A stretch of DNA of 64,000 nucleotides from Rhodococcus sp. CH91 (GTDB lineage Bacteria; Actinomycetota; Actinomycetes; Mycobacteriales; Mycobacteriaceae). A program made the position numbers and the translations under genes. The DNA lies in assembly GCF_022554085.1 (NCBI RefSeq), contig NZ_JAKFYR010000003.1, forward strand, positions 230,074-294,073, given 5' to 3'. The notes under the pieces are model-generated. The model ran no database searches, was not told where the DNA came from, and was given only the letters and a program-made list of their open reading frames with translations. Numbering within the stretch: position 1 is the stretch's first letter; each line of letters starts with the position of its first letter. Of this stretch, positions 33,620-38,282 are shown piece by piece.

Positions 33620-35569
33620 CTAGCCGTTTCCTGCCGACGACCGTAACCGCCACGGCACGCTCGTCACCATCACGCCGGGCTGGAACAGCAACCGGCTCTT
33701 GAGCCGCAGGGCGCTCTGGTTGTGGAGCAGGTTCTCCCACCAGTGTCCGACGACGTATTCGGGAATGAACACGGTGACCACGTCGCGAGGCGAGGTGCCC
33801 CGTACCCGCTTGACGTAGTCGAGCACCGGCCGGGTGATCTCCCGATAGGGCGATTCCAGCACCTTCAGGGGCACGGTGATGTCGCTCGCCTCCCACTCGC
33901 GCACGAGCTCGCGGGTGTCCTCCTCGTCGACGTCGACGGTGATCGCTTCGAGCGTGTCGGGGCGGGTCGCTGCTGCGTAGGCGAGCGCGCGCCGGGTCGG
34001 ATGATGCAATTTGGCGACGAGCACGATCGAGTACGTACGACTGGGCAGCACTCCTTCCCAGCGCCCGGGATCGAGCTCTTCCGCGACGCGGCGGTAGTGC
34101 CGGTTGACGGCCCGCATCGTCGCGAAGACGGCCACCATGGCGAGGATCGCGATCCATGCACCGGCCACGAACTTCGTGATGAGCACGATGATCAGGACGC
34201 TGCCCGTCATCCCGAGGCCGACGGCGTTGATGATGCGTGAACGGTGCATTCTGCGTCGGTGGCGGGTGTCCGTCTCGGTGGCCAGCAGCCGGGTCCAGTG
34301 CCGCACCATGCCCGTCTGGCTCAGCGTGAAGGAGACGAACACCCCGACGATGTAGAGCTGGATGAGGTGCGTGACCTCGGCGTCGAACGCCCAGACGAAC
34401 ACGATCGCCGCGAGAGCGAGGAAGACGATGCCGTTGCTGAAGGCGAGCCGGTCGCCCCGGGTGCGCAGCTGTGTCGGTAGATGCTTGTCCTGGGCGAGCA
34501 CCGACGCCAGAACCGGGAAACCGTTGAAGGCGGTGTTCGCGGCCAGGACCAGGATCAGCGCGGTCACCGCGGTGACGAGATAGAAGCCGAGAGGAAAACC
34601 TGCGAAGACCGTCTCGGCGATCTGCGCGACCATCGTCTTCTGGTGGTAGCCCTCGGGCGCTCCGCGCAGCTGGGTCGCGGGGTCCTCGGCGATGACGACT
34701 CCCAATCGTTCGGCGAGGACGATGATGCCCATCAGCAGCGTGATCGCGATGGCACCGAGCAGGAGCAGCGTCGTGGCGGCGTTGTGCGATTTCGGTTTCC
34801 GGAAGGCGGGGACCCCGTTGCTGATGGCTTCGACCCCGGTCAGTGCCGCACATCCCGAGGAGAACGCGCGGGCCAGCAGGAACGCGAAGGCCAGTCCTGT
34901 CAGGTGCGAGTCTTCGGCGACGAGTTCGTAGTTCGACGATTCGGCCTGCAGATCGGCGTCGAGGAAGACGACCTGCACGAACCCCCAGACGAGCATCACC
35001 CCGATGCAGAACATGAATGCATAGGTCGGGATCGCGAAGGCTGTCCCCGCCTCGCGGAGGCCACGCAGGTTGACGGCGGTGAGGAGTGCGATCGCGGTGA
35101 CGGCGAACAGGACCTTGTGGTGGTCGACGAAGGGTATCGCCGACCCGATGTTCTGCGCCGCCGACGAGATCGACACGGCGACCGTCAGCACGTAGTCGAC
35201 GATCAGGGCGCTTCCCACCGTCAGGCCGGCTGTGGCACCGAGATTCTTCGTCGCCACTTCGTAGTCCCCGCCCCCGGACGGGTAGGCGTGCACGTTCTGC
35301 CTGTAACTCGCGACCACCACGAGAAGGACCACCGCGACCGCGAGCCCGATCCAGCCGGAGAACGCGTAGGCGGACAGACCGGCGACCGACAACACGAGGA
35401 AGATCTCTTCCGGCGCGTAGGCGACGGAGGACAGCGCATCGGACGCGAACACCGGAAGAGCGATCCGTTTGGGCAGCAAGGTGTGGCCGAGGGTGTCGCT
35501 GCGCAGCGGCCTTCCCAGCAATACTCGCTTGGTGACTCCGTCACGGCCCTTGTGCAAGGTAACGGCCAC
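33620..35569 (-). CDS. APC-superfamily permease, KimA-like potassium transporter
   Basis: About 649 residues: twelve or so membrane helices in the first 470 residues (for example LPVFASDALSSVAYAPEEIF, SYRQNVHAYPSGGGDYEV, FSSGCAALTGVEAISNGVPAF, VLAANTAFNGFPVL) and a soluble universal-stress-like C-terminal domain (SIVLVAKLHHPTRRAL...). This is the domain layout of KimA, a high-affinity potassium-proton symporter. The start is a GTG at 35575 or 35569; GGGAG upstream fits 35569 better. No c-di-AMP (ydaO) riboswitch is apparent upstream. Potassium as substrate is inferred from family. Confidence 0.85.
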   Translation of the reverse strand: MAVTLHKGRDGVTKRVLLGRPLRSDTLGHTLLPKRIALPVFASDALSSVAYAPEEIFLVLSVAGLSAYAFSGWIGLAVAVVLLVVVASYRQNVHAYPSGGGDYEVATKNLGATAGLTVGSALIVDYVLTVAVSISSAAQNIGSAIPFVDHHKVLFAVTAIALLTAVNLRGLREAGTAFAIPTYAFMFCIGVMLVWGFVQVVFLDADLQAESSNYELVAEDSHLTGLAFAFLLARAFSSGCAALTGVEAISNGVPAFRKPKSHNAATTLLLLGAIAITLLMGIIVLAERLGVVIAEDPATQLRGAPEGYHQKTMVAQIAETVFAGFPLGFYLVTAVTALILVLAANTAFNGFPVLASVLAQDKHLPTQLRTRGDRLAFSNGIVFLALAAIVFVWAFDAEVTHLIQLYIVGVFVSFTLSQTGMVRHWTRLLATETDTRHRRRMHRSRIINAVGLGMTGSVLIIVLITKFVAGAWIAILAMVAVFATMRAVNRHYRRVAEELDPGRWEGVLPSRTYSIVLVAKLHHPTRRALAYAAATRPDTLEAITVDVDEEDTRELVREWEASDITVPLKVLESPYREITRPVLDYVKRVRGTSPRDVVTVFIPEYVVGHWWENLLHNQSALRLKSRLLFQPGVMVTSVPWRLRSSAGNG

Positions 35570-35691
35570 GACCACCGACTCCCGTCCTGCGCATCTCCGC
35601 GCACGCAGAAGCGAAGGGTACGCTCGCGGAAGGACGTCCGCCACAAGTACATATCGGGCGGAATCACCCGCCCGATCACCCGTGTACAGCC

Positions 35692-35720
35692 TTGGCAGAT
35701 GAAAGAATGCTCTATAGCGT
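35692..35720 (+). promoter_or_regulatory. Promoter of candidate sRNA 1
   Basis: TTGGCA at 35692-35697 and TAGCGT at 35715-35720 with a 17-base spacer, predicting a transcript start at about 35727, exactly where the first hairpin begins. Confidence 0.55.
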
Positions 35721-35726
35721 GGAGTC

Positions 35727-35831
35727 GTTGTTGCTCCTCGCAACAAAGCGTGCCGCGTCTCCTCCCCTTACGACCGGCACGGACGGACCCCGTCGGCCCT
35801 CCCCTCGTACCGCCGACGGGGTTCGCTTTTC
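35727..35831 (+). ncRNA. Candidate C-rich-loop sRNA 1 (6C-like)
   Basis: About 105 bases folding into three consecutive hairpins with pyrimidine loops. H1: TTGTTGC/GCAACAA (35728-35746), loop TCCTC. H2: CGTGCCG/CGGCACG (35749-35781), with an inner CGT/ACG, loop CTCCTCCCCTT. H3: ACCCCGTCGGC/GCCGACGGGGT (35787-35822), loop CCTCCCCTCGTACC, followed by TTCGCTTTTC as terminator. CUCC-rich loops can pair with ribosome binding sites (GGAGG), the mode proposed for the actinobacterial 6C RNA; the loops here do not contain six consecutive C. A related element lies at 38145-38282. Confidence 0.6.
35787..35830 (+). terminator. Terminator of candidate sRNA 1
   Basis: Perfect 11-base stem (35787-35797 with 35812-35822), then TTCGCTTTT. 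Confidence 0.65.
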
Positions 35832-35959
35832 TCGTTCCCACGTCCCGGCAGTCCGTGCCGCGTCCACGCTGTCCCGCCGAGCGGCACCTGTGTTTGACGC
35901 GCCCCTCGCCCGCGCGGTCGACTACTTCCTTCACCACGCTCACGATCCGGAGACCGACC

Positions 35960-36634
35960 ATGACCGACGCCATCCTCGAGCTCTACGTCAACGACGGATT
36001 GTCCGACGAGGAGATCGATCAGCAGAGGGCCGTCTACGGCCCCCTCGCCGAGGATGTGCGGGAGTTGATCCAGCTCGCGCTGCAGACCCGCGTCGGCGCC
36101 GAGGACGTCGCCCGGGCGCGGGAGCATCTGGCCGCCGCTCGCGAGATCCTCGAACGCGACCGGGAGGACGGCCCGTACGGAACCCGGTTCAACGACTCCG
36201 GGCGTTACCGGAACTGGGGTAATGCCGCGATCGGCCTGCGCAACGCGATCGCACCCATCGGCGACCTCCATCAGGAGGACGACGGTCGCGTGTGGGCCGA
36301 CGTCCACCTCGGCCCGGTCTACGAAGGACCGGCCGGTCATGTGCACGGCGGTGTCTCCGCGCTGCTGCTCGACCAGATCCTCGGCGACGCCGCGCGCATT
36401 TCGGGGCATCCGGGCATGACGGGCACGCTCACCATTCGCTACCGCAAACGCACGCCGCTCGGCGCGCTTCGCATCGAGGCGGAGCTCGACCGAGTCGAGG
36501 GCCGAAAGGCATTCGTCGTCGGACATGTCACCGACGCCGAAGGTGTCTGCGTGGAAGCCGAGGGCGTGTTCATCGCGCCGGCCTGGATGGTGCAGCAGCG
36601 CGAGTCGTTCGAGGAGATGCCGAGCCCGGAATAG
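35960..36634 (+). CDS. PaaI-like hotdog thioesterase with N-terminal extension
   Basis: A 224-residue protein. Residues about 95-210 form a hotdog domain: GPAGHVHGGVSALLLDQILG with the active-site loop, TGTLTIRYRKRTPLGALRIEA as the central strands, and AEGVFIAP at the end. The first 95 residues are helical and charged (LIQLALQTRVGAEDVARAREHLAAAREIL) and unassigned. The ATG at 35960 follows CGGAGACC. It stands 34 bases before the tandem-hotdog gene and may be cotranscribed with it; both would act on acyl-CoAs. Confidence 0.82.
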   Translation: MTDAILELYVNDGLSDEEIDQQRAVYGPLAEDVRELIQLALQTRVGAEDVARAREHLAAAREILERDREDGPYGTRFNDSGRYRNWGNAAIGLRNAIAPIGDLHQEDDGRVWADVHLGPVYEGPAGHVHGGVSALLLDQILGDAARISGHPGMTGTLTIRYRKRTPLGALRIEAELDRVEGRKAFVVGHVTDAEGVCVEAEGVFIAPAWMVQQRESFEEMPSPE

Positions 36635-38064: not shown

Positions 38065-38144
38065 AGGTCGCCTTTGGAGGCCGAGAACAGTTGTCAGGTC
38101 TCGTTTGCGTATCGACTCTGGACGGCCGCCGGTAGATTCACCTA

Positions 38145-38282
38145 AGCTCCAAGACGGCCACGCGTAGGTGGCCGTGTCTCCCTAAGTCCTCCCCGACACA
38201 GGAGATACAGCGCGAGGCCCCGCCGGCTCCTCCCCTCGAAACGCTGGCGGGGCCCTTCCCTGTCGGCCTCCCATCGACAGGG
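38145..38282 (+). ncRNA. Candidate C-rich-loop sRNA 2
   Basis: Four hairpins in about 130 bases. H1: ACGGCCAC/GTGGCCGT (38154-38175). H2: GTCTCC/GGAGAT (38176-38206), whose loop contains TCCTCCCCG. H3: GGCCCCGCC/GGCGGGGCC (38216-38254), loop containing CTCCTCCCCTCG. H4: CCCTGTCG/CGACAGGG (38258-38282), loop GCCTCCCAT. The -10-like TAGATT at 38133-38138 predicts a start near 38145. The loop string CTCCTCCCCT is shared exactly with sRNA 1, 2.4 kb upstream, so the two look like one family. No T-run is visible after H4, so the 3' end is uncertain. Confidence 0.5.

Follow-up and report, generated by a model that had tools for sequence, protein, structure and literature searches.

6C RNAs are defined by loops that contain at least six consecutive C. 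For the B11/6C RNA of M. abscessus, repression of mRNAs through pairing with their ribosome sites has been reported (PMC10470900). NfeR1 (alpha-r14) is described as an RNA of three hairpins that carries an unpaired CCUCCUCCC in each of them on stems that vary, and that silences ntrB independently of Hfq (PMC10746234). For sX13 of Xanthomonas, three stems and three C-rich loops have been reported, together with repression of mRNAs that carry G-rich motifs close to their start (PMC3771888). In Mycobacterium tuberculosis, DrrS/MTS1338 is reported to be an sRNA of ~108 nt that is driven by DosR (PMC5360333; PMC8628891).

The locus compared with these RNAs lies in a window of 64,000 nucleotides (G000:C22:230074-294073), the whole stretch of DNA that was analysed, from a Rhodococcus genome of 4.89 Mb. 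Judging from its sequence, the stretch 35727-35831 very probably represents a genuine small RNA gene. It belongs to a set of four sister types in this genome, referred to as types A to D, with type A at this position. The features of the type A locus are as follows:

33620 to 35572, minus strand: divergent amino acid permease gene (PF13520, Pfam), a neighbour
35663 to 35681, plus strand: direct repeat ATCACCC-N5-ATCACCC, 5' of the -35-like hexamer, a candidate activator site of type A
35692 to 35697, plus strand: -35-like TTGGCA, the identical hexamer in 6/9 type A loci
35715 to 35720, plus strand: -10-like TAGCGT, TAnCGT in 9/9 type A loci
35727 to 35832, plus strand: type A sRNA of ~105 nt, made up of three CUCC-loop hairpins, ends predicted
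35728 to 35746, plus strand: hairpin 1, 7 bp (stem 35728-35734/35740-35746), loop UCCUC
35749 to 35781, plus strand: hairpin 2, 10 bp and a single bulged C at 35756 (stem 35749-35759/35772-35781), loop UCCUCCCCUUAC
35784 to 35825, plus strand: hairpin 3, the terminator stem, 14 bp (stem 35784-35797/35812-35825), loop CCUCCCCUCGUACC
35826 to 35832, plus strand: U-rich tail CTTTTCT following hairpin 3
35894 to 35926, plus strand: promoter-like block TTGAC ... GGTCGACT of the thioesterase gene, apart from the sRNA, in 9/9 type A genomes
35960 to 36634, plus strand: 4HBT thioesterase gene (PF03061, Pfam), the downstream neighbour, outside the sRNA

The region 35727-35845 folds into the three hairpins with -52.3 kcal/mol (z -5.4), and none of 200 shuffled versions (mean -34.35, sd 3.32) folds as well. 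What the first-pass annotation had observed here was confirmed as a whole: the loops, both promoter hexamers and the 17-nt spacer between them are found where it had placed them, and the start that it had predicted at a hairpin would fall ~7 nt past TAGCGT, at ~35727, with stem 1 beginning at 35728. Its three perfect stems are indeed three hairpins, of which the second is imperfect owing to the bulged C. It had also remarked that the loops lack six C in a row, and the longest run of C in a loop is four. The terminator scan admits loops of 3-8 nt, so that stem 3 itself was not reportable by it; the scan returned an overlapping site at 35803-35821 with the tail TTCGCTTTTC and a second site at 35868-35885. 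A scan for the sigma-70 consensus reported no promoter at type A, and the promoter, being weak by consensus, has its support in conservation, which extends to the upstream repeat, where TCACCC is invariant in the first half and TCA-C in the second half across the 9/9 type A loci.

The window contains no match to any family of Rfam 15 at the gathering cut-offs. A kinship with 6C RNA, which had been considered in the first-pass annotation, is not supported: the 6C model (RF01066, cut-off 47 bits) gives no match within 35650-35900 even at E 10, and the genome has a separate true 6C RNA elsewhere, at G000:C8:52566-52640, with 74.9 bits. The assignment of type A to 6C was rejected on these scores, and its longest loop run of four C falls short of the six C of the 6C definition; what it shares with 6C/B11 is the actinobacterial host and the C-rich loops, while it differs in having three hairpins and no C6 loops. 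The best Rfam score of type A is that of alpha-r14 (RF02344) with 28.7 bits (E 8e-4 for 251 bases), and the type A sequence of L002 reaches 33.9 bits with the same model. Membership in alpha-r14 was likewise rejected, since 28.7 bits is below the gathering cut-off of 58.8. Type A resembles alpha-r14/NfeR1 in its three hairpins and anti-SD loop motifs, but these motifs are CUCCUC, CUCCUCCCC and CCUCCCCUC instead of an identical CCUCCUCCC in each, and alpha-r14 belongs to alphaproteobacteria, a different phylum. The same design of three stems with C-rich loops is seen in sX13 (RF02232), although the score of type A is 12.5 bits, where the cut-off is 50, and the genus is unrelated. Among published Rhodococcus sRNAs, as far as titles, the beginnings of abstracts and passages go, with subscription papers and supplements outside this scope, the type A RNA was not recognised.

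When 18 genomes of the genus, own genome counted, were searched at the DNA level, nine gave matches. The match in G015 was left out of type A, having later been read as a different C-rich RNA, and the locus of G013 was added through a covariance model (R1) built from eight type A sequences. Type A is present in 9/18 genomes, the window and eight orthologues, and half of the genomes are without it. In the alignment of the nine loci, neither CUCCUCCCC around loop 2 nor CCUCCCCUC in loop 3 varies, while loop 1 is kept in six loci and not in the other three. Stem-breaking substitutions in related genomes had been named beforehand as evidence that would speak against an sRNA, and this check mostly favours one, with 95.4% of the cells paired (n=9 loci). 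Five pairs are changed on both sides, three of them in hairpin 2, compared to 0 to 3 when the partners are slid, and the covariation score is 0.122 compared to at most 0.070 in the slid controls. The 15 G-U pairs outnumber the two A-C mismatches, which favours the plus strand. The structure is kept through compensatory change with the loop sequence kept as well, and by sequence conservation, the consensus scan being negative, the locus has its own promoter and terminator apart from the next gene. The proposed sRNA gene with a promoter and a terminator of its own is supported by the compensatory changes, the conserved loops, the strand-biased G-U pairs and the separate promoter-like block of the next gene. 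A coding sequence is disfavoured, as the loci are 104-110 nt long and the steps in length are not in threes.

The first-pass annotation had described a single sRNA, one member of a family, and had missed its sister types, one of them inside the same window:

38118 to 38148, plus strand: promoter-like CTGGAC-N19-TAAGCT of type B, TGGAC invariant in 11/11 aligned copies
38155 to 38263, plus strand: type B sRNA, hairpin 2 loop CUCCCC nested in a UGUCUCC/GGAGAUA stem, terminator loop CUCCUCCCCUCGAAAC
G000:C15:1793-1895: type C (L055/L090), 42.7 bits, E 3.2e-5 with R1
C22:294804-294908, minus strand: type D (L227), 731 nt past the right end of the window

All four types have three hairpins, at least two of them with C-rich loops; in type D these are CCCCCC in hairpin 1 and CCCCC in hairpin 2. 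Type B in the window is matched by R1, the model trained on type A, with 34.9 bits (E 0.0012). A second model, R2, was built from A, B and C together (29 rows), which makes its scores for these three types partly circular; it gives type B, a member of its training set, 72.5 bits, and type D 40.6 bits (E 0.0014). Type B lies directly 3' of the same small open reading frame in 11/11 genomes compared, and the consensus promoter scan reported nothing at 38118-38148. Reading of the folds in the 18 genomes gave type A in nine, type B in 15 (in G005 counted by model hit and synteny alone), type C in six and type D in 13. At E 0.1, R2 has matches in 17/18 genomes and none in G016. With R1, 11 of 151 genomes of the family have matches, nine from the genus and two weak others, and with R2 two of 298 genomes of the order, both from this genus, so that outside the genus R2 found no match in the order at E 0.001; the family and order runs used stricter filters, under which weak matches are lost. 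G015 alone (L009, L049, L057) holds several RNAs with related C-rich hairpins, CCCAUCCCCUG and CACCCCCCGC being examples of their loops.

In the joint alignment of types A, B and C (A10; 29 rows, 28 distinct, drawn without the loci of G004, G010, G015 and G007 except L060), 24 of 30 pairs show double changes, and the covariation score is 0.482 compared to at most 0.137 with slid partners, in an alignment fitted to the model. A larger alignment (A4, 51 rows), which contained antisense and duplicate rows, was kept out of the counts. Further pair types number 55 compared to 50.4 in shuffled alignments, with 23/500 shuffles reaching 55; helix 2 is paired in just 71.9% of the cells, and the strand bias is weaker than in type A alone, with 49 G-U pairs and 29 A-C mismatches.

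In 9/9 genomes with type A, the thioesterase gene follows it immediately downstream, even where the neighbours are rearranged, and Rfam labels 6C as 'Cis-reg', both of which would suit a cis-acting leader or attenuator of this gene, in which hairpin 3 causes premature termination that a signal or a ribosome can prevent. We regard such a leader as improbable. The promoter-like block between the terminator and the thioesterase gene is kept in 9/9 genomes, and type A and the gene are on this account most likely separate units; furthermore, type B follows another reading frame, C and D are found elsewhere, G011 and G012 keep the thioesterase gene and lack type A within the ~350 nt upstream of it, and an attenuator needs no invariant anti-SD loops. 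From the arrangement of these sequences, type A is probably not a leader of the thioesterase gene. An independent trans-acting sRNA of ~105 nt that lowers the translation of several mRNAs is the reading we consider likely.

The candidate targets of such an RNA were surveyed in 824 kb of the genome (38 stretches and the window) with 319 called genes and 509 candidate ATG starts, counting hexamers at -17 to -5; the starts were chosen mechanically, which makes the test a rough one. Among 1969 hexamers, several of those complementary to loops 1 and 2 rank near the top for enrichment (AGGAGA rank 2, AGGAGC rank 3, GAGGAG rank 7, GGGAGG rank 15), with AAGGGG and GGGGAG following at ranks 98 and 245. 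Complements of loop 2 occur 53 times upstream of starts over a background of 8.5 (z 14.4) and those of loop 1 40 times over 8.5, close to the real anti-SD tail with 35 over 4, and the complements of loop 3 occur 32 times over 9. Out of 2000 shuffled oligos, 13, 87 and 326 do as well as loops 1, 2 and 3, respectively, so that part of the enrichment is mere C/T richness. The loop complements of the sister types amount to 33 over 14 and 51 over 14 for type B, to 21 over 8, 24 over 16.5 and 41 over 8 for type C, and to just 18 over 8 and 10 over 5.5 for type D. Matches of 8 nt to loop 2 were found at five starts, one of them before a ThyX-like protein, named by reading (GAGGAGGAGACGATG, L269). The 27 genes of the window alone show no clear enrichment, with loop 3 matches at the starts of none and inside one. 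The strict target pattern AGGGGAGGA occurs before ATG two, three and one times in three genomes, compared to one, zero and one for the control.

The same counts bear on an sRNA that would bind a protein or another RNA through its C-rich loops and leave mRNA starts uncovered. Conserved loops suit any single-strand binder and the complements of loop 3 are little above what composition gives, yet loops 1 and 2 complement hexamers that rank at the top before starts, and the RNAs of such design known so far are reported to act on mRNA (PMC10470900, PMC3771888, PMC10746234), leaving a binder of this kind with little likelihood. That there is no RNA gene at all and the locus is a terminator with chance hairpins or a repeated MITE-like DNA element, as several related hairpin arrays per genome and a weak promoter consensus might suggest, is highly improbable in view of the compensatory changes, the strand-biased G-U pairs, the promoter-like elements at fixed positions, the divergence of the types, with A and B syntenic instead of near-identical inserts, and a search of a plasmid collection that found no match.

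By analogy, the trans-acting RNA probably works as alpha-r14/NfeR1, sX13 and 6C/B11 do, with its loops pairing with Shine-Dalgarno sites and blocking translation. In the scheme we infer for type A, from transcription and ends to base pairing, repression and targets, RNA polymerase would start at ~35727, probably aided by a regulator that binds the TCACCC repeat, and would stop after hairpin 3. The stems would expose pyrimidine loops containing CUCCUCCCC and CCUCCCCUC, which could pair with GGAG-type Shine-Dalgarno sequences, AAGGGGAGGAGA being the ideal partner of loop 2, and such pairing would keep ribosomes off the mRNA. Of the interpretation given in the first-pass annotation, the sRNA gene and the loops covering ribosome sites remain, the latter supported by analogy with 6C/B11, NfeR1 and sX13 and by the enriched complements of loops 1 and 2, whereas the relation to 6C is not supported.

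Types B and C have the same kind of loop behind other promoters, by which different signals would feed one translational output. Tentatively, and as a possibility we hold less firmly than the trans-acting sRNA itself, types A, B, C and D may form a sibling network in Rhodococcus besides 6C, each with its own signal and all sharing a translational brake at ribosome sites, as a convergent actinobacterial system that parallels alpha-r14 and other sRNAs with C-rich loops and operates without Hfq. The inputs could be the regulator of the TCACCC repeat for type A, a DosR-like hypoxia/NO regulator for type C and a factor binding TACTCGCGAGTA for type D. One kind of pairing loop combined with differing promoter elements would offer a direct way to study broad sRNA control in actinobacteria; for mycobacteria, a review describes the hunt for an Hfq equivalent as still going on (PMC8628891).

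The conserved upstream element is different for each of A, C and D. In type C, a GGGACTTAAGTCCC-like palindrome precedes the start in 6/6 loci and is within one mismatch of GGGACTWWAGTCCC in five of them. The DosR consensus has been given as GGGACTTNNGNCCCT (PMC6448022) and, as used for R. equi, as NNNGGGHCNWWNGNCCCBNN (PMC2947987), and the type C element resembles such a DosR box in sequence. Allowing one mismatch, the own genome has two sites of the DosR-like pattern compared to one for a control pattern, one before type C and the other ~150 nt upstream of a further RNA with C-rich hairpins. The 18 genomes together have 38 forward sites compared to 26 of the control, which is mildly above it, so that the link to type C rests on position and conservation and was noticed post hoc. 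Compared by description, type C, the one type to which the comparison applies, is like DrrS/MTS1338 in size and in its DosR-like box; DrrS differs in being made through 3' processing (PMC5360333), and the word 'C-rich' is absent from the main text of that paper. Type C lies downstream of a galU-like gene, named by reading. The RNA-like stretch at the second site (L238, from 1419 on; G000:C22:193918) lies ~150 nt after GGGACCAAAGTCCC and has two C-rich hairpins with loops containing CCCCCC and CCCCCCC; a search of Rfam at E 0.5 gave no match for it.

In 13/13 loci read, a perfect TACTCGCGAGTA palindrome precedes type D, and model hits beside the palindrome point to type D also in G010, G011 and G012. 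The clade of these three genomes has an additional type B-like copy (L047, L048, L050) and, ~530-680 nt away from it, an oppositely oriented model hit beside the TACTCGCGAGTA palindrome. The word TACTCGCGAGTA occurs once or twice per genome in 17/18 genomes and is absent from G016. The second copy of the own genome (L300, 1980-1991; G000:C38:226279) is upstream of a gene that reads as dihydrolipoamide-dehydrogenase-like, and G006 has its second copy in a different setting.
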